Source of the DNA: a virus
IMG/VR virus record: IMGVR_UViG_3300023184_003370
Span: 1-20,335 of that record
DNA length: 20,335 nt
Direction: 5' to 3' (one strand)
Under the pieces are notes generated by a model that saw only the letters and a list, made by a program, of their open reading frames with translations, was not told where the DNA came from and searched no databases. Position numbers and translations under genes: made by a program. This document shows, one piece after another, positions 1,546 through 18,741 of this stretch (positions within the stretch are counted from its first letter, which is position 1; each line of letters starts with the position of its first letter).

Positions 1546-2358
1546 ATGTTTCTAGGGCTCAAACAAGATTTCAAATCCGATAGTGCAACGCCTATTGATC
1601 AACTTGATAAAAAGTGGTCAGTAGTAAATCACTACGGTCGTTTTTATTTGTTGTCCAATGTGTGTCCGCATCAGCACAGCAGAATCAGCAATTGTGAAAC
1701 ATCCAAGTTAACGTGCCCATACCATGGTATGCAATTTGATTTATTGGGACTAGGCATTGGTAACGATCTGGTGCTACAAAAAAAATCTTGCCACAGTGAT
1801 AGTGCTATGTTGTTTGATCACGCAGTGCCTTATAGTTTTCCAATTCCAACAGAACACTTTGAACTGGTAGAGCATCGCCAAGACACAGTGAACGCATCAG
1901 TTGAAACAATCATGGATGTGTTCTTGGACATAGATCACATTCCTGTTGCACATGCGGGCGTGTATGATCGAATTGGTATTGTAACAGTTGGTCGTGTGGT
2001 GTATGAAACCTTTGATGGTGGTTCTGTACAATTTGTACCCCCACAATTTAACAACCACATGATTGCACAAGATCAAGATTTAAATCTTGGTGCTTGTTGG
2101 ATGGCACTGTATCCCGGCACAATGATTGAATGGCAGCCTGGTGCGCTATTTGTTACCGTGGCAACCAACAGTGGTGTACAAGTGTACAAATATCGAGACA
2201 CAAGATATCCACTCAGCAGTTGGAACATTAACGAAGATGTATGGGAGTTGGCCTGGAGTCAAGATAAAACTCTTAGTGAAAACATAGTTGAGTTTGGTCA
2301 CACTAATCTAGATCAACTCAAACAACATCATAGGATTTATTATGCTGTGCAGAGATAA
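1546..2358 (+). CDS. Small Rieske [2Fe-2S] non-heme iron oxygenase-like protein
   Basis: A 270-residue protein with two parts typical of a ring-hydroxylating oxygenase alpha subunit. Residues 25-65 hold a Rieske motif, C40-P-H42 then C57-P-Y-H60 (C-X-H-X14-C-X2-H), which binds a [2Fe-2S] cluster. Residues 128-136 (DIDHIPVAH) fit the D-X2-H-X4-H motif where two His bind the catalytic mononuclear iron and the Asp bridges electron transfer. The third iron ligand, expected nearer the C-terminus, could not be assigned with confidence. It is shorter than typical alpha subunits (about 330-450 residues), and no reductase or ferredoxin gene is in view, so host electron carriers are inferred. It overlaps the downstream PP-loop gene by 17 nt. 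Such an enzyme could hydroxylate or demethylate a small molecule, base or sugar; the substrate is unknown. Confidence 0.85.
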   Translation: MFLGLKQDFKSDSATPIDQLDKKWSVVNHYGRFYLLSNVCPHQHSRISNCETSKLTCPYHGMQFDLLGLGIGNDLVLQKKSCHSDSAMLFDHAVPYSFPIPTEHFELVEHRQDTVNASVETIMDVFLDIDHIPVAHAGVYDRIGIVTVGRVVYETFDGGSVQFVPPQFNNHMIAQDQDLNLGACWMALYPGTMIEWQPGALFVTVATNSGVQVYKYRDTRYPLSSWNINEDVWELAWSQDKTLSENIVEFGHTNLDQLKQHHRIYYAVQR

Positions 2359-3205
2359 CTGGATTGACATCAGTTGGGACGGACTTCCACAGCGCAAACA
2401 AAAAGAAAACTTGCGTGTGATATTCAATCAAAAGGCTGACAAGATTATACCGTTTGATCAAGCATGTGATCAAACTGCACATGAAATTTATAGCCAATAC
2501 AAAAATTTATACGTTGCACTTAGTGGCGGATGTGACAGTGAGAATGTGGCTAATACATTCTACAGAAACAATATACCGTTTACTCCTATTATTTTAATTT
2601 ACAACAATGTAGATGATCAGGAGCAAGTGACAGAAAGTTTATACGCCATTGAATGGTGTAAGAAACACAAAATTGAACCATGGGTAATTCATTCACAAAA
2701 CTTTATTGGGTCACTAGAAGAACGTGCTGCATTTCTTAATGTTAAACCTAGATTATTTTTTGGTAATGTTACCAGTTTGATGTTAGCAACACATGTTAAA
2801 GAACGCAATGGACTATTGGTAACTGGATATCAGTTAGAATACTATCCTGATCACGAGCAAATGACATACTTAGAATCACAACTGGGAAACTATGTGGGGT
2901 TTGTGATGGAAGAAACTGATCGATATTTAGAAACAATGTGCCCTGATCAACACCCTTGGGGATTTCATTATTGGAGTCCAGATATTTTAGCGGCGTTTGT
3001 CAACGAATGGGATACCAGTATGACCATGCAAGAAAACAAAGCCAATATCTATAAAGTACCACATCGACCAAAGCTCAGTTATCCAAAAGACTTCGCACCA
3101 CCAGACATATATCACAATCGACATTTGTTATTATCTCAATTTGGTACGTTGGATTGTGCGCTACTAGGCACAAAACAATCACTACTCGAAAAACTTGTTA
3201 AATAG
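2342..3205 (+). CDS. PP-loop ATPase-like protein (ATP-pyrophosphatase superfamily), role unknown
   Basis: A 287-residue protein with the PP-loop SGGCDSE at 61-67 after a hydrophobic strand (NLYVAL), the signature of enzymes that adenylate a substrate with release of pyrophosphate (asparagine synthetase, GMP synthetase, QueC, TilS, sulfur transferases). The following layout (PIILIYNNVDDQEQ, then EWCKKHKIEPWVIH) fits the adenine nucleotide alpha-hydrolase fold. It lacks the C-terminal Cys-rich zinc site of QueC and carries no glutaminase domain, so QueC, AsnB and GuaA are not supported. Its ATG lies 17 nt inside the Rieske gene, implying coupled translation and perhaps a shared pathway. It appears more AT-rich than its neighbours, which may hint at separate acquisition. 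The closest subfamily is uncertain. Confidence 0.75.
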   Translation: MLCRDNWIDISWDGLPQRKQKENLRVIFNQKADKIIPFDQACDQTAHEIYSQYKNLYVALSGGCDSENVANTFYRNNIPFTPIILIYNNVDDQEQVTESLYAIEWCKKHKIEPWVIHSQNFIGSLEERAAFLNVKPRLFFGNVTSLMLATHVKERNGLLVTGYQLEYYPDHEQMTYLESQLGNYVGFVMEETDRYLETMCPDQHPWGFHYWSPDILAAFVNEWDTSMTMQENKANIYKVPHRPKLSYPKDFAPPDIYHNRHLLLSQFGTLDCALLGTKQSLLEKLVK

Positions 3206-3281: not shown

Positions 3282-3785
3282 ATGGCAAATCAACCCCGTC
3301 AATACACATATACCAGCACCAAAGAGTATCATGATGCATTTCCCTGCGCATACCGTCAATGGCGTGCCGACAGCCACTGCAACTTAATTCATGGTTATTC
3401 ATTCTCAATGAAGTTTTACTTTGGCACAGACAATCTGGATGTGCGCAACTGGGCAGCCGACTACGGCGGTCTCAAAGAACTGAAGAAAACTTTGGAAGAT
3501 CAATTTGATCATACCTTACTAGTGTCTGCAGATGATCCAGAGTTGGAAACATACCGACTGTTGCAACAAAAGAAAATGGCCAAACTCACAATCCTTCCAC
3601 GCTTAGGTTGCGAAGGTTTGGCAGACATGCTGTACAAGTATGTTAATGGTGTTTACATTCCGGACCTGTGGGGACCGGGTGAAGCAGAGCGTCTCTGGTG
3701 CTATCGTGTGGAAGTGCGCGAAACACAGAGCAACATGGCTTTCCGAGAAGGCCATCGCGAGTGGATGGAAGATCTATTCGTTTAA
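3282..3785 (+). CDS. queD: QueD/PTPS-like protein (6-carboxytetrahydropterin synthase family)
   Basis: A 167-residue member of the 6-pyruvoyl-tetrahydropterin synthase/QueD family. QueD converts dihydroneopterin triphosphate to 6-carboxy-5,6,7,8-tetrahydropterin, the second step of 7-deazaguanine synthesis. Family landmarks are SHCNLIHGYSF (31-41) with catalytic Cys33 and zinc ligand His37, DYGGLKELKK (60-69), the catalytic Asp-His pair at 76-77 (QFDH), the LGCEGLAD region (108-115), and Glu147-Thr148 near the C-terminus. Two of the three usual zinc histidines appear replaced: HGH reads HGY (Tyr39) and the early AAHR reads CAYR (Tyr24). The start follows AGGAGG with 5-nt spacing and its own promoter. 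YhhQ follows after 17 nt and QueE lies about 4.3 kb downstream, supporting a 7-deazaguanine role. True QueD activity is uncertain because of the substitutions. Confidence 0.85.
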   Translation: MANQPRQYTYTSTKEYHDAFPCAYRQWRADSHCNLIHGYSFSMKFYFGTDNLDVRNWAADYGGLKELKKTLEDQFDHTLLVSADDPELETYRLLQQKKMAKLTILPRLGCEGLADMLYKYVNGVYIPDLWGPGEAERLWCYRVEVRETQSNMAFREGHREWMEDLFV

Positions 3786-3802: not shown

Positions 3803-4429
3803 ATGTTAGATCGAATCTTAAATGGCGTTGACCGTGCATTGGCCTACAAGCTCATGCTGGCACATATTATTATTATTGCTATCAGCAACTACATTGTGCA
3901 ATTCAAATTCTCAGTGTTTGGTGCGCCATTGGCAGCAGCCGCGTTTACATTCCCACTAGTGGTTGTGCTAACCGACTTGACTGTGCGACTGTTGGGCAAA
4001 CAAACTGGTCGTGCTGTGATTGCATTGGCATTCATTCCTGCTATCATTGTGTCAATGGCAGTGGTCAAACTGGGCGGCGCTCCTGACTCAGTGGCATTCC
4101 GCATTGGTCTTGGTAGTGGTTGTGCATATTTCATCAGCAACTTGCTTGATGTGTATGTGTTCCAATACATTCGTGAAAAGTATGCTACTTGGTGGATTGC
4201 ACCTGCATTGAGTTCAGTTGTTAGCACATTCTTTGATACCTATGTATTCTTCTTTACTGCATTTGCTGGCGGTGCCAATGAGTTCATGGCTGCCAACTGG
4301 CACATTGTTGCAACCAACAATTCAATCAGCAAGATCATTGTGAGTCTGGTAGTTATTCTGCCTGTGTATGGTTTGCTGTTGAATCAACTGCAAAAGAAAA
4401 TAGTAGACGACGTCAAACAGCCCGACTAA
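3803..4429 (+). CDS. yhhQ: YhhQ-type queuosine precursor (preQ0/preQ1) transporter
   Basis: A 208-residue integral membrane protein of the Vut_1/DUF165 (YhhQ) family, which imports the 7-deazaguanine precursors preQ0 and preQ1. Family landmarks are SNYIVQ (28-33), TFPLVVVLTDLTVRLLGK (49-66), NLLDVYVFQYIR (about 113-124) and the SSVVSTFFDTYVFF segment. About six hydrophobic segments are visible, and length is close to E. coli YhhQ (about 221). The ATG follows AAGGA (3792-3796) with 6-nt spacing, 17 nt after queD, so the two share a transcript ending in the terminator just downstream. A phage copy would boost uptake of precursor for DNA or tRNA modification. Confidence 0.92.
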   Translation: MLDRILNGVDRALAYKLMLAHIIIIAISNYIVQFKFSVFGAPLAAAAFTFPLVVVLTDLTVRLLGKQTGRAVIALAFIPAIIVSMAVVKLGGAPDSVAFRIGLGSGCAYFISNLLDVYVFQYIREKYATWWIAPALSSVVSTFFDTYVFFFTAFAGGANEFMAANWHIVATNNSISKIIVSLVVILPVYGLLLNQLQKKIVDDVKQPD

Positions 4430-4474: not shown

Positions 4475-4514
4475 AACAAGTTATCTCTAGGGTTTGAAAC
4501 AGATTAAATACACT

Positions 4515-6488
4515 ATGAATAAAAAAACAATAAGTTTTGTACAGCCTAACTTTCAGCAAGGTCCCGAGGAATTTAATGCATACTACTTGCCATACTCTGC
4601 AGGTGTGATCTTGAGTTATGCATTTGGATTTGAGCACATTAAAAACACCTGGGAAATTGACGAATTGATTTGGCGTAGAGAGCCGATTGAAGAAGCGGCC
4701 GCAAGACTACAGCACAATGACATTGTGGCATTTAGCACCTACGTGTGGAATCACAGATACAACTATAAACTTGCGCAACGAGTTAAAGAACTCAACCCTC
4801 AAGTGAAAATTTTGTTTGGTGGTCCAGAAATAGCCAACACTGATCCAAAATTGTTTGAAAAAGAACCTTTCATGGATCTTGTAAGCAAGATGGAAGGTGA
4901 AATTACATTCAAGCGTATATTAGAAGACTTTGACACTGACTTCTCTCATATTCCTGGCCTGTTGATCAACACCCCAACAGGTCTAATAGATACTGGTGAT
5001 TGTGCCAGGATCGACAATCTTGATCAAATTCCCAGTCCATATCTCACAGGAATTTTTGATCGTATCATGGCAGAAAACCCTGATGTAATTTGGAATGCTA
5101 CATTAGAAACCAATCGTGGGTGCCCTTACCAATGTACCTTTTGCGATTGGGGTAGTTTAACCTATAACAAAGTTAAAAAGTTTGAACTCACTAGAGTGTT
5201 TCATGAGTTAGACTGGATCGGCCGTCACTGCGGATTTGTTACCATCACCGACGCTAACTTTGGCATGTTCATTGAACGTGACAATATGATTGTGGACAAG
5301 CTAATTGAAGTACAAAAACGTTGGGCCAAGCTGGCGTCATTCTCCATGACATGGGCCAAGAATCAAAAGAACGAAGTGGTTGGCATTGTAAAGAAACTGA
5401 TTGATGAAAGTCCCAACTTTGGATCAGGTCTCACTGTGAGCGTACAGAGTATGGACCATGATGTGTTGGAAAACATCAAACGTAGAAATTTAGATCAGCA
5501 CAAGATTGACGAAATCTTTGCCTTGTGCGATCGCAACAACATTCCTGTGTATACAGAAGTGATTCTTGGATTGCCGGGCGAAACTGTGGAAACATGGAAA
5601 GAAGCTTTTTGGAAAATCTTCCGTGCAGGCAATCATACTGGAATCAACATTTTGCAAGCTCAGCTGTTGGAAAACGCCGAGATGAATCTCTTGCAGAAGA
5701 GAATGTGGAAGATTGAGTCCATTCCAGTGTATGACTATATCAGTGGCAGCTACGGCGATGTTGATTTGATTGAATGTATCGATGTTGTGATTAGCACAAA
5801 AGATATTCCCAAAGAACAGATGTTGACTACCCTGGTATGGAATAGTTTCATACAAACTTTTCATATTAACGGATTGACCACTTATATTGCAAGATACTTG
5901 GCCAAAGCGCATGGTATCGATTACAGTGAATTTTATGATGCGTTTTATCAGCATATCCAACGTGACTCTTGGATGCAACAACAATTTGCTGACACACACA
6001 AATACTACGAGCTATGGACCACTACTGGGCTTGCTAACCATCCACGGATTGGCAACGTAGAAGTCACTGGTCAGAACCTCATGCATAGAATAACACTGAA
6101 CATGCAATTGGAAAACAAGATTGACCATGTGTTCGATATCATTGACAATTTTGTAAGAACCACGTATACTATTGACAGCAACATACTAGAACAGTTGTTG
6201 CAATTTCAAAGAAACTATGTGATTGACTACAAAGATTTGCCAGCATTGCCAATCAAACAAACGTTTGATTACGACTTCCTTGGATATTTGTTAGACAATT
6301 CTGACATAGCCACATCATGTGTGTATCAATTTGATACTGGTGAAGACAAGACCATGAGCATAGAAAGATTTTTAGAAAATATGTATTTTGGTCGCAAGAG
6401 AAATTTTGGAAAAACAACAATAACAAAAACTAATTCAGCCAACTTACCTGAAATAGAATATGACAACAGAGAACTTATTACCCCCTGA
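4515..6488 (+). CDS. B12-binding-type radical SAM enzyme
   Basis: A 657-residue protein. Residues 1-160 resemble the Rossmann-like cobalamin-binding domain found before many radical SAM cores (VAFSTYVWNHRYNYKLAQ, then KILFGGPE at 98-105), though no clear DxHxxG base-off motif is seen. The radical SAM core carries C203-X3-C207-X2-C210 (RGCPYQCTFCDWG) for the [4Fe-4S] cluster that cleaves SAM, followed by TITDANFGMF, SVQSMD and EVILGLPGET, all typical of this class. A 250-residue C-terminal region is unassigned. Such enzymes methylate unactivated carbons or rearrange substrates. I prefer the ATG at 4515 over an upstream TTG at 4494 because the family-like sequence starts there. A weak late-promoter-like ATTAAATA lies at 4503-4510. 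It overlaps the glycosyltransferase gene by 29 nt, suggesting a shared pathway. Confidence 0.88.
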   Translation: MNKKTISFVQPNFQQGPEEFNAYYLPYSAGVILSYAFGFEHIKNTWEIDELIWRREPIEEAAARLQHNDIVAFSTYVWNHRYNYKLAQRVKELNPQVKILFGGPEIANTDPKLFEKEPFMDLVSKMEGEITFKRILEDFDTDFSHIPGLLINTPTGLIDTGDCARIDNLDQIPSPYLTGIFDRIMAENPDVIWNATLETNRGCPYQCTFCDWGSLTYNKVKKFELTRVFHELDWIGRHCGFVTITDANFGMFIERDNMIVDKLIEVQKRWAKLASFSMTWAKNQKNEVVGIVKKLIDESPNFGSGLTVSVQSMDHDVLENIKRRNLDQHKIDEIFALCDRNNIPVYTEVILGLPGETVETWKEAFWKIFRAGNHTGINILQAQLLENAEMNLLQKRMWKIESIPVYDYISGSYGDVDLIECIDVVISTKDIPKEQMLTTLVWNSFIQTFHINGLTTYIARYLAKAHGIDYSEFYDAFYQHIQRDSWMQQQFADTHKYYELWTTTGLANHPRIGNVEVTGQNLMHRITLNMQLENKIDHVFDIIDNFVRTTYTIDSNILEQLLQFQRNYVIDYKDLPALPIKQTFDYDFLGYLLDNSDIATSCVYQFDTGEDKTMSIERFLENMYFGRKRNFGKTTITKTNSANLPEIEYDNRELITP

Positions 6489-7314
6489 CAACCCCATCGA
6501 CATCAGTATTTTATTGCCCACCCGTGGCAGACCAAAACCACTAGAACAATGCCTACGCACTCTACTTGACCGGGCCAAAGACCCCAGTCGAATAGAAGTG
6601 ATGTTGGCGTTTGACAATGACGATACTGAGAACATTGCATACTTTGTAGATGTTATACAACCCTATCTTGATGATCTTGGGGTAGAATACAGTGCCATAC
6701 AGTTTGAAAGACTGGGCTACATGCGACTGAACGAATATCTCAATGAACTGGCCAAACACAGCCAAGGCTCTTGGCTATTCTTTTGGAATGACGATGCTGT
6801 GATGAAAACACAGGATTGGGATCAAGTAATTCGAGACAACGCTCAAGAGTTTTATTTGCTTCGAGCCGAGACCAATCACGAACATCCGTATGCTATCTTT
6901 CCTATCCTACCAAAGAAGTGGGTGGAAATTACCGGACACTTGAGCCCGCATCAAATTAACGATGCCTGGACCAGCCAAGTGGCCTGGATGTTGGATATTG
7001 TAAAAACAATTCCTGTAATGATACATCACGAACGTTATGATCTTACTGGTGAGAACTTGGATGAAACATTCAAGGAACGTATCATGTTGGAAAACATGCC
7101 AGGTAATAATCCTAGAGACTTCAATCACATTTCATGGCGCAAACGTAGAATTGATGAAACTACCAAAATTGCAGACTATCTTGACAGCATAGGCCGTGAT
7201 ACCACATGGTTTAGAGATTCTATAGTAGGTAAAAATCCAGACATTTGGGCTAGAATGGTCCTGCAAGATCCACACAAGCGACTAAGACAATGGAAGGAAA
7301 GTCCCTTTGAGTAA
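6460..7314 (+). CDS. GT-A (family 2-like) glycosyltransferase
   Basis: A 284-residue protein with a GT-A nucleotide-sugar binding N-terminus: SILLPTRGRPKPLEQCLRTL (16-35), then the AFDNDD segment (50-55), and a metal-binding DXD-like WNDDA at 109-113. The C-terminal half is rich in Trp and His and has no familiar motif. The enzyme should transfer a sugar from an NDP-sugar to an acceptor in the cytoplasm, as no membrane segment is visible. It overlaps the radical SAM gene by 29 nt and the methyltransferase gene by 8 nt, so the three are probably one functional set. Possible acceptors are a modified DNA base, a surface glycan or a protein; the sequence does not decide. Confidence 0.82.
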   Translation: MTTENLLPPDNPIDISILLPTRGRPKPLEQCLRTLLDRAKDPSRIEVMLAFDNDDTENIAYFVDVIQPYLDDLGVEYSAIQFERLGYMRLNEYLNELAKHSQGSWLFFWNDDAVMKTQDWDQVIRDNAQEFYLLRAETNHEHPYAIFPILPKKWVEITGHLSPHQINDAWTSQVAWMLDIVKTIPVMIHHERYDLTGENLDETFKERIMLENMPGNNPRDFNHISWRKRRIDETTKIADYLDSIGRDTTWFRDSIVGKNPDIWARMVLQDPHKRLRQWKESPFE

Positions 7315-8080
7315 TGAACTATTAGACAAAATTGTACAGTACTGGGACCGCCAGCCTTGTAACATCAACCACAGCGCCAGCGAAGTTGGTACCGAACAAT
7401 TCTTTAATGAGAATAGTGAAAAGCGTTATTTTGTTGAACCGCATCTCAAAGACCTAGCACAGTTTCACTTGTATGCTGGCAAACGTGTGTTAGAAATTGG
7501 ATGTGGTATTGGTGCTGATGCGGCTGAGTTTGCTAGGCACGGCGCCGAGTATGTTGGAATTGATCTCAGCAGTGAAAGTATTGCACTAGCCAAAAAACGT
7601 TTTGAAGTATTTGGCCTAGAAGGTGAATTCTACCAAGCAAGCGGCGACAATGATCTTGCACACTTAGGCAAATTTGATTTGGTTTACAGTTGCGGTGTAT
7701 TGCACCACTATCCTGCAATTGATCGAGTTATTGAAAACATACACAGTCTAACAGTAGACGGCGGCGAATTTAAGATGTTGGTGTATGCTCGTGACAGTTG
7801 GAAATATGCCATGATTCAAAAAGGTCTGGACCAATACGAAGCACAGGCTGGTTGTCCGTATGCCAAAGCCTACACAAAAGAAGAAATCTATCAGTTGCTA
7901 GAGGGCAAATTCCATATCGGACGCATTAGACAAGCGCATTGTTTCATGTATAATGTACCTAAGTACAAGCAAGGTATCTATGAACTAGAACCTTGGTTTG
8001 AAGCAATGAGCGAAGAAATGCGTCAAGCAGTTCGCGAATACTTGGGTTGGCATCTACTGGTTAAAGCAACAAAAATATGA
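7307..8080 (+). CDS. Class I SAM-dependent methyltransferase
   Basis: A 257-residue protein with motif I VLEIGCGIGADAAEF (61-75), the acidic end of strand beta2 in VGIDLS (83-88), and a post-motif core FDLVYSCGVLHHYP typical of small-molecule methyltransferases. The N-terminus (YWDRQPCNINHS) is characteristic of a group often linked to sugar or polyketide-like methylation. The start is a TTG at 7307 with AAGGA (7294-7298) at suitable spacing; the conserved-looking N-terminus needs this start and no nearby ATG serves. It overlaps the glycosyltransferase by 8 nt and QueE by 4 nt. The substrate is unknown, with a sugar or modified base the simplest guess. Confidence 0.86.
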   Translation: MSNELLDKIVQYWDRQPCNINHSASEVGTEQFFNENSEKRYFVEPHLKDLAQFHLYAGKRVLEIGCGIGADAAEFARHGAEYVGIDLSSESIALAKKRFEVFGLEGEFYQASGDNDLAHLGKFDLVYSCGVLHHYPAIDRVIENIHSLTVDGGEFKMLVYARDSWKYAMIQKGLDQYEAQAGCPYAKAYTKEEIYQLLEGKFHIGRIRQAHCFMYNVPKYKQGIYELEPWFEAMSEEMRQAVREYLGWHLLVKATKI

Positions 8081-8943
8081 AATTAAAAGTCAGTGAGTTA
8101 TTTTATTCTGCACAGGGCGAAGGACGCTTTGTTGGTGTTCCTTCAGTGTTCTTACGAACCTTCGGCTGCAACTTTACATGCGCGGGATTTGGATGCGCTC
8201 CCGGCCATAAGAGCATTGAGGCGGATGAAGTGGCCAAGTCAATCCATCTCTACAAGACTTTTGAACAGCTTCCTCTTGTTAATACAGGATGCGACTCGTA
8301 TGCCAGTTGGCATCCTGCATTCAAGGACCTAAGTCACACACTCACACACGATGAACTGATCTCAAAGATGCTGGCTCTTACTCCCAACCATCGGTGGCAA
8401 CAAGACAATGGCAATGATGTGCATCTTGTGATCACAGGTGGCGAACCACTACTGGGTTGGCAGCGTGGCTACGAAGAACTGCTGAGTCAAGACGCCATGA
8501 GTGATTTGAAGAATATCACATTTGAAACCAATGGCACTCAAACGCTACAACTAGCATTTCGAAAATTTTTGCAAGAATGGCGCTACCCTGAACCGGGTGT
8601 CACACGAGAAATTACTTTTTCAGTAAGTCCCAAACTATCAGCATCAGGTGAATCATGGTCAGATGCCATCCGGCCAGAAATCATAGCAGACTATCAAAGC
8701 AACGGCAAAGTGTATTTGAAGTTTGTTGTTGATAGTGAAGCACACTTTGAAGAAGTTGATCGTGCTGTGGCTGCATATCGTGCGGCAGGCTTCCGCGGTG
8801 TAACCTATGTGATGCCACAAGGTGGTGTGGTTACTCCTTACGCTGCCAATCGTGTGAATGTGGCCGACTGGGCACTGGCCCGTGGTTACAACTATAGCCC
8901 AAGATTGCATGTGGATCTTTGGGGCAATGGCTGGGGCAAATGA
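8077..8943 (+). CDS. queE: QueE-like 7-carboxy-7-deazaguanine synthase (radical SAM)
   Basis: A 288-residue QueE-family radical SAM enzyme, which converts 6-carboxytetrahydropterin to 7-carboxy-7-deazaguanine. Landmarks are ELFYSAQGEGRFVGVPSVFLRTFGCNF (7-33), the SAM-binding ITGGEPLLGWQ around 119-129, TFETNGTQ and FSVSPKLSASGE. The usual CX3CX2C-DT motif is interrupted: C31-X3-C35, then 36 residues, then C72-D73-S74, which looks like the third cluster Cys with its usual following acid. C40 is an extra Cys in the insert. Length exceeds typical bacterial QueE (about 210-230) largely through this insert and a longer middle region. The ATG overlaps the methyltransferase stop by 4 nt. QueD and YhhQ upstream support the pathway assignment. 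Confidence 0.92.
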   Translation: MKLKVSELFYSAQGEGRFVGVPSVFLRTFGCNFTCAGFGCAPGHKSIEADEVAKSIHLYKTFEQLPLVNTGCDSYASWHPAFKDLSHTLTHDELISKMLALTPNHRWQQDNGNDVHLVITGGEPLLGWQRGYEELLSQDAMSDLKNITFETNGTQTLQLAFRKFLQEWRYPEPGVTREITFSVSPKLSASGESWSDAIRPEIIADYQSNGKVYLKFVVDSEAHFEEVDRAVAAYRAAGFRGVTYVMPQGGVVTPYAANRVNVADWALARGYNYSPRLHVDLWGNGWGK

Positions 8944-14989: not shown

Positions 14990-15697
14990 ATGTACTGGAA
15001 CAATCCCTTAATTGAAGCACAGTGGCCTGGCACTCAAGATCCTGTGCATGATAGCATGCACAACGGCAATCATTGTTTGTTTTGGAATCCAACCGCAGAA
15101 TTTCAAAACTTACCAACCAATCAACGACTCGGCGAACTGTGTAGATGGGCAATGGAATGGCTTGACCATGACAGCATAGATGGGTTTGCTGCCGAACTAC
15201 GCAACCATTACGACATTGCTAACTTGGTCAAACTGAATCTTTGGATACACGACATCCGGGTACAAGGCATTATAAAACCTTGGTTGTTGTTAGATCAAGA
15301 TGGCACACTGGTTCCTGGTACTGGGGACAGTAGATTGAGATGCTTGGAACGCATACCAGAAATCCAAACTGTGCCTGCGTTTATAAGCACACATGTTGAC
15401 AGGGCTAATCAGTATCAGCATCTTGAGCCTGTGACCACGTTGGATCAATTTGCTCGATTGTGTGGAGCTCGGCCCGGGCAGTTGTTTACTTTTAGATTGA
15501 CAGATCCCGCCGCTCCATTTGGCATGTATTGGTACGAATACAATAGTGACCAAACTAGATGGGTCACACCCAGTGAATCAGATTGTGTTGCGGCGTTTGT
15601 GGCCTATGCACAAGCTCATCCAAAAATCAACATCACGCCTGAGTGGTTTGATTGCCTGATTGACTGGAATCAATACCACAATATTGTAAAAAAGTAG
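14990..15697 (+). CDS. ParB/sulfiredoxin-like domain protein
   Basis: A 235-residue protein. The middle part, IHDIRVQGIIKPWLLL (86-101), LVPGTGDSRLRCLERIPEI (107-125) and TVPAFIS, fits the ParB N-terminal/Srx fold: the xxGxxKP element, the G-D-S-R-L-R nucleotide-binding loop and the closing VPxxI strand. ParB-like phage proteins can be DNA-binding partition or modification factors, nucleases or CTPases; no helix-turn-helix is obvious here. Start ATG 14990 lies 4 nt after the previous stop. The last 65 nt overlap, tail to tail, the asparagine synthetase gene on the other strand. Confidence in the fold is moderate and in the role low. Confidence 0.62.
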   Translation: MYWNNPLIEAQWPGTQDPVHDSMHNGNHCLFWNPTAEFQNLPTNQRLGELCRWAMEWLDHDSIDGFAAELRNHYDIANLVKLNLWIHDIRVQGIIKPWLLLDQDGTLVPGTGDSRLRCLERIPEIQTVPAFISTHVDRANQYQHLEPVTTLDQFARLCGARPGQLFTFRLTDPAAPFGMYWYEYNSDQTRWVTPSESDCVAAFVAYAQAHPKINITPEWFDCLIDWNQYHNIVKK

Positions 15698-17168
15698 CCG
15701 ACTGAATCTGTTTCCACTGTGCAGATCGATTAAGAGATGCAGGAACATTCACTCCCATCCAAGGCAAGCTATCGTTACAATGTCCTGCAAATCCTTGCTT
15801 GGGCAACAGCAAATCTTTAGGCCATTTCTGCAAAAATCTGTTTTGTAACAAGGGTTTGCCTTGCCGCAAATGCCAAGGCAAGTTGAGAGCAAACTTTATA
15901 ATCTTAGGATGCATAAAAGGCGAACGCGGTTCTATGCTGTGTGCCATGGTCATGGTGTCTACACCTCGTGCATCGACTGCTGTGATCTGCACAAGATAAT
16001 CCATTAGCAGTGTGGCTGCACCAGCATGCCCTTGTGAGGCAGACACACATTGATTCCAAAGTCGTTGACTATCTGTGTCCGACGAATCAAATTGACTGTA
16101 AGGACTTGCAGATGTGTTTGTGACAAATTGCATGTTTTGATATTGACCATATCCACCAAACAGTTCATCAGCGCCTATGCCAGTGAACAAAATTCGTTGC
16201 TGACAGTGATGCGCAATGTGCCATTGGCCAACAAAACTCCAACTCTGCACAGGCATCTGTGAACACTCAATGATGTCAATGTAGTCTTGTGCCCAGTCTT
16301 GTTTGGTCATGGGCAGCTCAGTGAGATTTTGACATTGTTGGTCAGTTAAAAACTCTCTCACTCGGTTGCTTACAGTGTCTTTGCCTTCGCATACGGTGGT
16401 ATACAATCCTGCAAATTCAGGCATGGCAGCCAGTATAATGCCAGAGTCCACGCCACCACTAAAGGTCAATCCTGCTGGTTCTGTAGGACGCATGTCTGCT
16501 ATAACTTTGTCAAATATCCAATCAAATTCTTCTTGAGCTTCCAAGTCGGTCATGGTCTGATGACTGTGCGTCCAATCAAATATACTGTCAATTTGAAAAC
16601 TTGGTCTTATTTCGGTATACAATCGACCTGGCTCACAGCGTTCAATACCTAGGTAAGGTGTGTGCCGTATGGTGGGCCAGTGTCGTTGACTCCATGCATC
16701 AACTTGAACTTGGGGCTGAACATAGCACAGGATTGCCGACACTTCACTGCTCACAATCAAAATGTCATCGTCTTGATATCGATACAAACAGCGTTCGCCT
16801 TGAGGATCTGTGGCAAATCTTACTGACTCAAAGTCAGTGTATACCCATGCCCAGGGTCCTTCAAAGTAAGGAAACTTCTTGTAGTTTTGTTCTCGAACTG
16901 TGCGATAAACTAATTCTGTGTCTGTAGTGTATCGACCAAACCACCGATAGTTGTACACTTCGCCGTTGTAGGCCAAGAAGTCTGGCTTGGGCCAATGATA
17001 AAATTCATCTTCACCTGTGATGTGTAGCACAGTTTGTGCTATGAATATGTTGTTGTGATGTTGGTAGTGTGTGAAGTCTGGGCCGCGGTCATGTATCTTT
17101 TCAACTGCCTGTAGATGTAGGTTAAGGTCAAGAGGACGCTGACTTTTTACAAACAATATACCGCACAT
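15633..17168 (-). CDS. asnB: Glutamine-hydrolysing asparagine synthetase
   Basis: A 511-residue, apparently intact class B asparagine synthetase. After Met removal Cys2 starts the class II glutamine amidotransferase domain, with RGPD (28-31) and YNGEVYNY (67-74). The synthetase half has the PP-loop SGGVDSG (237-243), TGIGADELFGGY (329-340) and SIEPRSPF near the C-terminal third. It makes Asn, or amidates a related substrate, from Asp, Gln and ATP. Length is close to E. coli AsnB (about 554). The ATG overlaps the upstream gene's TAA by one base (TAATG), so the two are coupled on the minus strand. Its 3' end overlaps the plus-strand gene at 14990 by 65 nt. Related proteins in biosynthetic clusters amidate sugars, so its phage role need not be Asn supply. 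Confidence 0.93.
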   Translation of the reverse strand: MCGILFVKSQRPLDLNLHLQAVEKIHDRGPDFTHYQHHNNIFIAQTVLHITGEDEFYHWPKPDFLAYNGEVYNYRWFGRYTTDTELVYRTVREQNYKKFPYFEGPWAWVYTDFESVRFATDPQGERCLYRYQDDDILIVSSEVSAILCYVQPQVQVDAWSQRHWPTIRHTPYLGIERCEPGRLYTEIRPSFQIDSIFDWTHSHQTMTDLEAQEEFDWIFDKVIADMRPTEPAGLTFSGGVDSGIILAAMPEFAGLYTTVCEGKDTVSNRVREFLTDQQCQNLTELPMTKQDWAQDYIDIIECSQMPVQSWSFVGQWHIAHHCQQRILFTGIGADELFGGYGQYQNMQFVTNTSASPYSQFDSSDTDSQRLWNQCVSASQGHAGAATLLMDYLVQITAVDARGVDTMTMAHSIEPRSPFMHPKIIKFALNLPWHLRQGKPLLQNRFLQKWPKDLLLPKQGFAGHCNDSLPWMGVNVPASLNRSAQWKQIQSATFLQYCGIDSSQSGNQTTQA

Positions 17169-18277
17169 TATTTTATTTGCTCAACTACTTGGGGCCACCA
17201 TTTAGCAAAATCTGCTGGCCAGTTTTGTTTCATTGTGGCCAACTGCTGTTGATTATGATTGGCAGCCGCCTGGCATCTTTGTTTGACTTGTTCAAAAGAT
17301 TGTTTTTTTATTGCTGTTACAGATTCGTCGCCATCTCTCACAAAGTCTACCATGCGATCGCCAAACTCTCCAGTTTGTTTTTCCAAATTAAAATCTGCAC
17401 GATGATTCACCAAGTCTGACATAATATCAAACCCCATTTGTATGAGTCTGGCTGTGGTGTATCGGCCAGCATACACCATAAATGGCACAGGTGTAACCAA
17501 AGCTCTGAATGTCTTTTCGCTCAATGCAATGCAGGTTTCGCTGCTGTAAGTTTCAATCACCATGTTAAGCCAGGCATGCACATGAGATTGTTCTACGGAA
17601 TAACTGTGATTGCGATAAGGCATCAGTGGAGTCATTTGTTTGAATGTTTTACGATAAATTGTTTGCAAATTTTCAGGAACATGTCCAAATTCTTTGATAA
17701 AACTTTGCTGAAATGCCTCAGTTGAATCATTTGTACTGCCCCAGGTCCAGCAGTTAAAGTTGACAAAATCTCTATCAAGATCCAACAGTACTGGCCAATC
17801 TTTATGCATGGGATCTGGATCTGGTTTGGTTGCTCGAGTAGTCAACTCCAAAAACAATTCCAAGCGTTTGGCATCTAATCTGTTGACCGAAAAGTTAAAT
17901 CTACGCTCTGGTGTCCAATCGCTCAGTTCCGGCCGGTAACTGTAGATGCCAAAATAGCTATCAGGTAGTTGGCACACTTGGTATTGTGTGGCACAAGTAA
18001 TCTCATTGTCTGTAATTACTGTGGTATTGGTGCCCCAAGCATCTGGCATGGTGCCTGGTTGGTCCCACGGCTTGCAAGTAAACACATCGTCGGCCAAACA
18101 CACAATAACTTGGCGTGAGCCGCGAGCCCACACTTTGTTTGATTCGGATATGCTGTGATAGCCCAGTTGGGTCAATTGGCTGCGGAAGAAATCCATCATG
18201 GTATTCTCGTGCCATATGCATTGTGTTTTTTGAAACACTTCACTGGTGTAAATGTCGTGATATAAGTCAACCGTCAT
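17168..18277 (-). CDS. Unknown phage protein with glycosyltransferase-like C-terminal motif
   Basis: A 369-residue protein from the ATG at 18277. The segment 229-292 contains VIETYSSETCIALSEKTFRAL, followed by PFMVYAGRYTTARLIQMGFD. This SETY...SEKTF...PFxVxG...L...GF pattern resembles the donor-binding part of GT10/fucosyltransferase-like and related phage proteins, where the Glu-Lys pair contacts the nucleotide sugar. The N-terminal 200 residues are not recognised. The frame is open up to 18409, but that stretch contains a long palindrome and translates poorly, so I use the inner ATG although no good Shine-Dalgarno is seen. It leads the two-gene minus-strand operon with asnB, implying a joint role. 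The glycosyltransferase call is tentative. Confidence 0.68.
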   Translation of the reverse strand: MTVDLYHDIYTSEVFQKTQCIWHENTMMDFFRSQLTQLGYHSISESNKVWARGSRQVIVCLADDVFTCKPWDQPGTMPDAWGTNTTVITDNEITCATQYQVCQLPDSYFGIYSYRPELSDWTPERRFNFSVNRLDAKRLELFLELTTRATKPDPDPMHKDWPVLLDLDRDFVNFNCWTWGSTNDSTEAFQQSFIKEFGHVPENLQTIYRKTFKQMTPLMPYRNHSYSVEQSHVHAWLNMVIETYSSETCIALSEKTFRALVTPVPFMVYAGRYTTARLIQMGFDIMSDLVNHRADFNLEKQTGEFGDRMVDFVRDGDESVTAIKKQSFEQVKQRCQAAANHNQQQLATMKQNWPADFAKWWPQVVEQIK

Positions 18278-18310
18278 GTGGGTACTTAGCAACACTCGTG
18301 ACCCTGAGCT

Positions 18311-18316
18311 AAAATA
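18311..18316 (-). promoter_or_regulatory. Candidate extended -10 element for the minus-strand operon
   Basis: Read on the minus strand, TGCTATTTT gives an extended -10 (TGn plus TATTTT) about 34 nt upstream of the ATG at 18277. No good -35 is present; the region that would hold it is the palindrome at 18319-18360. A transcript starting here would fit the inner ATG as the true start. The evidence is a motif only. Confidence 0.35.
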
Positions 18317-18318
18317 GC

Positions 18319-18360
18319 AAAAAGTACTACTTTTTAGGGTTACAAAAAGTAGTACTTTTG
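18319..18360. repeat. Long AT-rich inverted repeat between divergent genes
   Basis: AAAAAGTACTACTTTTT (18319-18335) and its near-complement AAAAAGTAGTACTTTT (18344-18359) are separated by an 8-nt loop; 16 base pairs match and one T is missing in the right arm. It lies between the divergent minus-strand operon and the GIY-YIG promoter, reaching the minus-strand -10. This position suits an operator or DNA-structure element better than a terminator, since no gene reads into it from either side. Confidence 0.75.
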
Positions 18361-18376
18361 TAGTGGTATCTTTTGG

Positions 18377-18405
18377 TTGACCAATAATGCTCGAAATGCT
18401 ATAAT
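18377..18405 (+). promoter_or_regulatory. Sigma70-type promoter of the GIY-YIG gene
   Basis: TTGACC (18377-18382), a 17-nt spacer and TATAAT (18400-18405) with TGC before it form a near-consensus promoter. The first ATG at 18412 lies only 7 nt beyond the -10 box, so the transcript would begin at or within a base or two of the start codon, giving a leaderless mRNA. The extended -10 matches those at 3261 and 18761. Confidence 0.85.
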
Positions 18406-18411
18406 ACACAC

Positions 18412-18741
18412 ATGATGAGAAAGAAACGCACTGATCGAAGCCACATTGTGTACTGTATCCAAATTGGATTTGAGTACTACATTGGTATTACCGCTAAAAC
18501 CCAGCGCACAATTAACATGTCGCTCCGTAGCCGTGTGAACAAGCACATCTACCGTAGCCGCACTGAAGACAAGAGCTGGAACTTGTACGAAGCAATTCGC
18601 ACAAACGGCGTGGCGGCAATGAATGTGGCGATCGTGGACATTGTGCGCGGCAAAACTGCGGCGCACAAGTTGGAGCGCGAGTTAATACAAAAGTATGCAC
18701 CTGCGCTGAACACGGATGTTCGCGTGAAGCAAAACGGTTGA
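18412..18741 (+). CDS. GIY-YIG endonuclease
   Basis: A 109-residue protein consisting of little more than a GIY-YIG nuclease domain. [16 protein letters not shown] (12-27) supplies both strands of the motif (VYC and YIG), a conserved Arg lies in LRSRVNKH (38-45), and the metal-binding Glu is in [14 protein letters not shown] (87-100). Such proteins in T4-type phages are often free-standing homing endonucleases, but no DNA-binding tail is present, so target range is unknown. Two adjacent ATGs (18412, 18415) are possible starts, both almost at the predicted transcription start. Its own promoter, strand change and odd palindromes on both sides suggest a mobile or independently regulated gene. 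The stop TGA is part of the next promoter's -35 box. Confidence 0.88.

Follow-up and report, generated by a model that had tools for sequence, protein, structure and literature searches.

WbpS and WbqG, assigned to the family TIGR03108 in PMC7468200, are AsnB-like enzymes that form uronamides; they act on a sugar acid and not on aspartate, and their genes lie near sugar-nucleotide genes (PMC7468200, PMC6025236). T4 beta-glucosyltransferase, SdgB, TarM, POGLUT1 and SPY share the two-domain GT-B fold of glycosyltransferases. Here, we describe a pair of minus-strand genes in the IMG/VR virus record IMGVR_UViG_3300023184_003370, the 20,335 bases of which are referred to as the window. The pair encodes an AsnB-like protein of 511 amino acids (15633..17168) and a protein of 369 amino acids, here called PART (17168..18277). 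No report of an AsnB-like/GT-B pair was found in the literature searched.

The best reading of the pair, which we hold to be probable, is that of a single module that makes or modifies a glycan, with PART as the glycosyltransferase and the AsnB-like protein as a sugar-acid amidotransferase. PART, as its predicted fold suggests, would take a sugar from a nucleotide-linked donor and attach it to an acceptor. The AsnB-like protein would activate a carboxylate with ATP and convert it to an amide; aspartate is probably not its acceptor, as the aspartate-site residues are lost in the alignment, and gene context and the WbpS/WbqG precedent point to a sugar acid, for example a uronic acid that is linked to a nucleotide or forms part of the glycan. 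Both are known kinds of enzyme, and the features to follow are an AsnB clade lacking Arg49 and a hypervariable GT-B locus.

The window represents part of a genome from a lineage of jumbo phages. Scans of viral collections with two single-protein queries and one PART alignment query gave 98 relative loci (L002-L099). The contigs that carry some of these are 343 to 364 kb long, which places the lineage among jumbo phages. The window exonuclease is 44-46% identical to its counterparts in jumbo phages including PA5oct, XaC1 and Munch, and the gene order surrounding the pair is conserved among the relatives. Both open reading frames (ORFs) are open throughout. In 14 close loci, the median ratio of nonsynonymous to synonymous divergence (dN/dS) was approximately 0.08 for PART, with saturated synonymous sites, and median dN divided by median dS was approximately 0.11 for the AsnB-like gene; this constraint on both proteins indicates that they are coding and not chance ORFs. 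The start ATG of PART at 18277 is retained in relatives, so that a longer alternative ORF of 413 amino acids is probably not the real gene. The two minus-strand genes of the initial annotation are thus intact, conserved in relatives and under protein-level constraint. That they are the only minus-strand genes in the window agrees with the ORF map and with the conservation of the plus-strand genes in relatives; the other minus-strand ORFs of at least 60 amino acids, which were not checked singly, overlap longer plus-strand ORFs.

The AsnB-like protein

Pfam analysis of the 511-residue protein identified Asn_synthase (E 6.7e-24) and GATase_7 (E 8.9e-8), corresponding to ATP-dependent synthetase and class II glutaminase domains. 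The protein resembles E. coli AsnB and human ASNS in its domain order and in Cys1, Asn74, Glu76, Asp98, the SGGxDS loop, Asp351 and Lys449 (E. coli AsnB numbering), and differs from both in the replacement of Arg49, Glu348 and Arg387, which in the window protein are Val, Ile and Gly. These positions were compared in 17 phage members and 57 cellular homologs, the latter being those that passed an ORF filter out of 80 loci taken from the matches listed by a pattern scan (23 dropped). All 17 phage members keep Cys1, Asn74, Gly75, Glu76, Asp98, the P-loop Ser, Asp and Ser, Asp351 and Lys449; all 17 also have Val for Arg49, Leu, Ile, Val or Ala for Glu348, and Gly for Arg387. Arg49 is retained in 56 of the 57 cellular homologs, the exception being L129. 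At position 348 the cellular set has Glu in 25, Asp in 17, Gln in seven, Leu in five and three others, and position 387 is Lys or Arg in 37. In this comparison, the change at 348 is not unique to phages; the change at Arg49 very nearly is unique to them.

We equate human Arg-48 with E. coli Arg49, and human residues 364 and 403, by a constant offset, with 348 and 387. In human ASNS, E364A and E364Q are reported to be inactive with aspartate and ammonium, and the side chain of Arg-48 is placed for interaction with glutamine (PMC6748925); Arg-403 is given a role at the aspartate or aspartyl-AMP site (PMC11615228). Given the loss of these aspartate- and glutamine-site residues, the acceptor is likely another acid, plausibly a sugar acid. 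The handling of glutamine may also differ.

If the AsnB-like gene were instead a metabolic gene, unrelated to PART and providing asparagine for the synthesis of phage proteins, this would account for the Pfam and TIGR01536 homology and for the retention of Cys1, Asn74, Glu76, Asp98, the P-loop, Asp351 and Lys449. However, the score against the asparagine synthetase B model TIGR01536 was 149.5 bits (148.1 by genome search), below the cut-off of 267.1, the equivalents of Arg49, Glu348 and Arg387 are lost in every phage member, the human substitutions of E364 abolish activity, and the gene is coupled in an operon with that of a GT-B protein. The protein is unlikely to make asparagine, and a role in asparagine supply has only the slimmest of chances. 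The initial annotation had pointed out that enzymes of the AsnB type can amidate sugars or peptides in place of making asparagine. The altered residues, the score below the cut-off and the nucleotide-sugar context described below point to such an activity, with a sugar acid as the plausible substrate. Models of the N-acetylglutaminylglutamine and XrtA amidotransferases scored far under their cut-offs.

The closest cellular relative among the matches listed (28% identity) is on a Pelagibacteraceae contig and also lacks Arg49. Its neighbours encode a cytidylyltransferase, an HAD phosphatase, a PhyH dioxygenase, a sugar 3,5-epimerase-like protein, an APS kinase, a nucleotidyl transferase and a sugar dehydratase. 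Among 197 genomes of the same order, members at E 1e-40 or better were present in two, that relative included; the second adjoins epimerase and PhyH genes and, by eye, has Leu at the place of Arg49. A plasmid search gave only matches of 21-25% identity among those listed. The Synechococcus phages S-SCSM1 and S-SCSM2R encode AsnB-like proteins in which Arg49 is Ile and Val, respectively, as in the window clade without Arg, and the S-SCSM1 gene lies inside a glycosyltransferase and fucose cluster. They differ from the window protein in their low identity (approximately 25-30%) and in that no PART relative was found in the phage collection. The nucleotide-sugar neighbourhoods of these relatives, taken with the WbpS/WbqG precedent, make a sugar acid the favoured substrate. 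The window protein, itself AsnB-like, would then resemble WbpS and WbqG in its association with sugar-nucleotide genes and in acting on a sugar acid.

The PART protein

PART had no match in Pfam, PHROG, PADLOC, the PDB sequences or the phage collection, and weak NCBIfam lines at E 0.02-0.06 were regarded as chance. A PART-family scan of species-genome contigs matched 69 pattern stretches, with no cellular relative among them. A second family in the relatives, of approximately 320 amino acids (p320), is a paralog of PART: its profile recovers PART proteins at E values of about 1e-3 to 1e-11, and hhalign aligned the two with 94.8% probability across 65 columns. Eight residues (D64, N223, E242, E254, K255, D284, D288 and R334), which may belong to a donor site, are invariant in 79 PART and p320 members. 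Of the donor-binding-like motif SEKTF/PFxVxG that had been assigned to PART, the SEKTF part is present at residues 253-257. The remainder was mis-written, as the protein reads PFMVYAG (PFxVxxG), the F of which is frequently W in relatives.

An AlphaFold model of PART built from the alignment of these 79 sequences reached a pLDDT of 92.1 and a pTM of 0.90. It superseded a first model (15 sequences, pLDDT 67) that gave weak matches only. The best Foldseek match in the PDB was SdgB (E 8e-5); unrelated Foldseek lines (KRAS-like GTPases, receptors) were discarded as chance. The top VIA-align match was T4 beta-glucosyltransferase (Z 9.9, rmsd 5.0, 252 residues aligned), followed by POGLUT1, SPY, a glycosyltransferase of phage HY126, an O-GlcNAc transferase and TarM. 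The VIA rows consisted of glycosyltransferases and GT-B-fold relatives, with 38 chains at Z of at least 8 and the best Z over model residues 6-363. As rows within 1 Z were counted as tied, the results support the GT-B fold class and not a subtype. The viral structure matches were mostly uncharacterised phage proteins, one being named UDP-glucose/GDP-mannose dehydrogenase (788 amino acids).

PART is thus predicted, from a confident model, to have a two-domain GT-B glycosyltransferase fold. The glycosyltransferase-like partner suggested by the initial annotation was recovered by the structure search of the model, with no family from the sequence searches. PART is like T4 beta-glucosyltransferase, SdgB, TarM, POGLUT1 and SPY in the overall predicted fold. 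It is unlike them in sequence (3-15% identity in the listed structure alignments), in the lack of a Pfam or PHROG family or PDB sequence match, and in its hypervariability among close phage relatives.

Coupling of the two genes

The two genes are joined as had been described, by a TAATG junction in which the stop codon of PART and the start codon of the AsnB-like gene have one base in common. To describe the junction in relatives, we used 56 distinct full-length PART proteins, a set that excludes duplicates, fragments and distant paralogs. Downstream of PART, 32 of these had AsnB, 14 a same-strand p235-like gene, five a p235-like gene in convergent orientation and five something else. Where AsnB adjoined PART, the one-base overlap was present in 28 relatives, and in the other four the start lay just past the stop. 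The term moron, which had been applied to the pair, fits poorly, as PART occupies one fixed position in the surveyed relatives and only the adjacent AsnB is variable. No prophage turned up among the surveyed loci, which had been found by querying with these same proteins.

The 235-residue gene of the window (p235; 14990..15697, plus strand) is convergent with the AsnB-like gene and overlaps its 3' end by 65 bases. This family switches strand between relatives, as seen on comparison with L006 (4468-5148), the member of which has a weak ParB_N match (E 4.2e-4, under the gathering score).

Variability of PART among relatives

Variability was analysed in hand-picked sets of 24, 14 and 11 sequences from L002-L099, some of them near-identical or from the same contig, so that the pairs are not independent. 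In the 14 close loci, the median pairwise identity was 0.58 for PART, compared with 0.89 for AsnB, 0.88 for p235, 0.83 for p121, 0.97 for p95, 0.94 for the exonuclease and 0.93 for a neighbouring GIY-YIG gene. The pairwise identities of PART correlated weakly with those of all other tested genes (rho 0.16 to 0.38; 24 loci), while those of AsnB correlated strongly with its neighbours other than PART (rho 0.69 to 0.85). At the nucleotide level, the all-pairs mean identity of 11 sequences was 0.61-0.73 over 18295-17246 and 0.80-0.94 on either side. In the bin 17845-17696 of this profile, identity rises for four relatives, which suggests mosaics.

Synonymous differences in PART were saturated (median proportion, pS, of 0.73, compared with 0.40 for AsnB; 14 loci). 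Positive selection on PART was considered, but with a low dN/dS and saturated synonymous sites the data are better explained by the replacement of alleles than by rapid evolution of the protein. From these comparisons, the variation looks like the exchange of old alleles between related phages.

The GIY-YIG nuclease-like gene (18412..18741, plus strand) matched a PHROG homing endonuclease family (E 1.1e-5) and Pfam GIY-YIG (E 0.0044, under the gathering score). It adjoins PART in 41 of the 56 distinct relatives, is not adjacent in 11, and has no room in four. This adjacency, together with the hypervariability of PART, suggests allele exchange. Nuclease genes have been reported at boundaries of phage genetic exchange (PMC10448857), and the nuclease is a candidate driver that possibly helps the exchange of PART alleles. 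PART would then be exchanged as divergent alleles, and the glycan would probably differ from phage to phage.

PART and the GIY-YIG gene diverge from an intergenic stretch (18278..18411) that contains a sigma70-like promoter for the latter and, upstream of PART, a perfect inverted repeat of 16 nt around a loop of 8 nt (18320-18335 / 18344-18359). In L002 and L019 the loop reads in the opposite sense to that of the window (GTAACCCT against AGGGTTAC-like), which suggests hairpin-mediated flipping.

Sugar genes and other possible substrates

The wider PART family, as detected with the p320 profile, was present in 11 of 11 larger relative records, with one to nine matches each. In stretches fetched from two records, the paralogs have as neighbours genes for NAD-dependent epimerases, DegT/DnrJ aminotransferases, an NDP-sugar dehydrogenase, a PIG-L deacetylase, carbamoyltransferases and twitch radical SAM proteins. 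The PART paralogs are therefore in sugar-nucleotide and glycan-modification company. L121, L122, L123 and L124 have, near PART paralogs, carbamoyltransferases of the NodU type, several radical SAM proteins of the twitch type and proteins that by eye are amidinotransferase-like (one weak dimethylargininase match).

These genes bear on another possibility, in which the pair would serve a pathway for peptides or small molecules, with the AsnB-like protein as an amide or lactam synthetase of the lasso-peptide or beta-lactam type and PART glycosylating the product. A weak match to the lasso peptide cyclase model NF033535 (38 bits, cut-off 525) and the radical SAM, amidinotransferase-like and carbamoyltransferase genes elsewhere in relatives would be in keeping with such a pathway. 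Lasso cyclases are not known to have the glutaminase nucleophile. The AsnB-like protein, unlike them, keeps its glutaminase site save for Arg49, and many of the paralog neighbours are sugar-nucleotide enzymes; we regard a peptide pathway as very unlikely.

Alternatively, PART may glycosylate phage DNA in the manner of T4 beta-glucosyltransferase, with the AsnB-like protein amidating a modified base and the modification blocking host restriction. The T4 enzyme is the top VIA match, and the window includes a QueD-like gene (3282-3785), a queuosine-precursor transporter gene (3803-4429; TIGR00697, 99.5 bits, above the cut-off of 50.95) and a QueE-like gene (8077-8943). However, protein glycosyltransferases score within 1 Z of the T4 enzyme and thus tie with it, and the PART paralogs adjoin sugar-nucleotide genes. 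Furthermore, PF00303 (thymidylate-synthase-like hydroxymethylase) and PF01702 (TGT-like base exchanger) were found in none of seven relative records, which may be incomplete, with controls positive in nine and 14 of 14 genomes. DNA glycosylation is accordingly rated as improbable, though somewhat less so than a peptide pathway.

The window encodes further proteins of related kinds. A KedN5-like methylcobalamin radical SAM protein, a GT2-like protein and a methyltransferase are encoded in overlapping order at 4494-8080, and are possibly another glycan-modifying set. The stretch 1546-3205 encodes a Rieske-domain protein followed by an SGGCDS-loop protein without a confident family, which we take to resemble ATP pyrophosphatases.

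Target of the glycan

The lipid-carrier sugar transferase PF00953 and the flippase PF01943 were each found in none of seven relative records; the positive controls were found, and the records may be incomplete. The lack of these two families makes a new lipid-linked polymer the less likely case, and the glycan is more likely carried by a phage protein or an existing host glycan. A host receptor may be the target, but the phage's own particle is no less likely to be the one modified.

The same enzymes may instead act specifically on a host surface polysaccharide and not on the virion, for receptor masking or superinfection exclusion. The cellular AsnB-like relatives lie in surface-polysaccharide-type clusters, and glycosyltransferases of pelagimyophages have been interpreted in a similar way, as altering host O-chains (PMC7029224). 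On the other side are the lack of lipid-linked assembly genes of the two families in the records searched and the jumbo phage XacN1, for which at least two glycoproteins have been detected (PMC5852040). A target restricted to the host surface is possible but doubtful. Given that neither of the two families tested for lipid-linked assembly turned up, we lean slightly towards a phage-borne glycan.

Several observations weigh against a glycosyltransferase and sugar-acid amidotransferase module. The AsnB-like protein is unlike WbpS and WbqG in its score of 57.1 bits against TIGR03108 (eps_aminotran_1; cut-off 816.9), a comparison with WbpS by model score and not by alignment, in the absence of Arg49 and in the hydrophobic residue at 348. 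The cellular set is heterogeneous at the altered positions, with five of the 57 homologs also having Leu at 348 and 20 lacking Lys or Arg at 387. With the Arg that anchors glutamine lost, the nature of the nitrogen donor is in doubt. AsnB does not adjoin PART in 24 of the 56 relatives, and the pair is therefore no obligate unit. Lastly, the GT-B fold is common, and Z values of 8-10, with identities of 3-14%, are modest. With these points included, the glycan module is still the reading that we prefer.

A more specific proposal is that of a swappable glycan-type locus, in which nuclease-assisted exchange brings in divergent alleles of PART amid unchanging surroundings, and in which PART is coupled to a new AsnB-like clade that amidates a sugar acid in the absence of the normal glutamine anchor, possibly with another nitrogen donor. 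Taken as a whole, this proposal is speculative and rather unlikely. If true, a phage-made coat or the decoration of a host glycan would change between close relatives, as bacteria switch serotype.

The pair represents a testable enzyme set for phage-made glycans in jumbo phages, which may serve as a virion coat, in receptor masking or in defence evasion. The AsnB-like clade without the glutamine-contacting Arg could bring to light another nitrogen donor in an enzyme family that has been studied in great depth, and the sharp variability of one glycosyltransferase gene amid stable neighbours is a lead on how phages diversify their surface chemistry.

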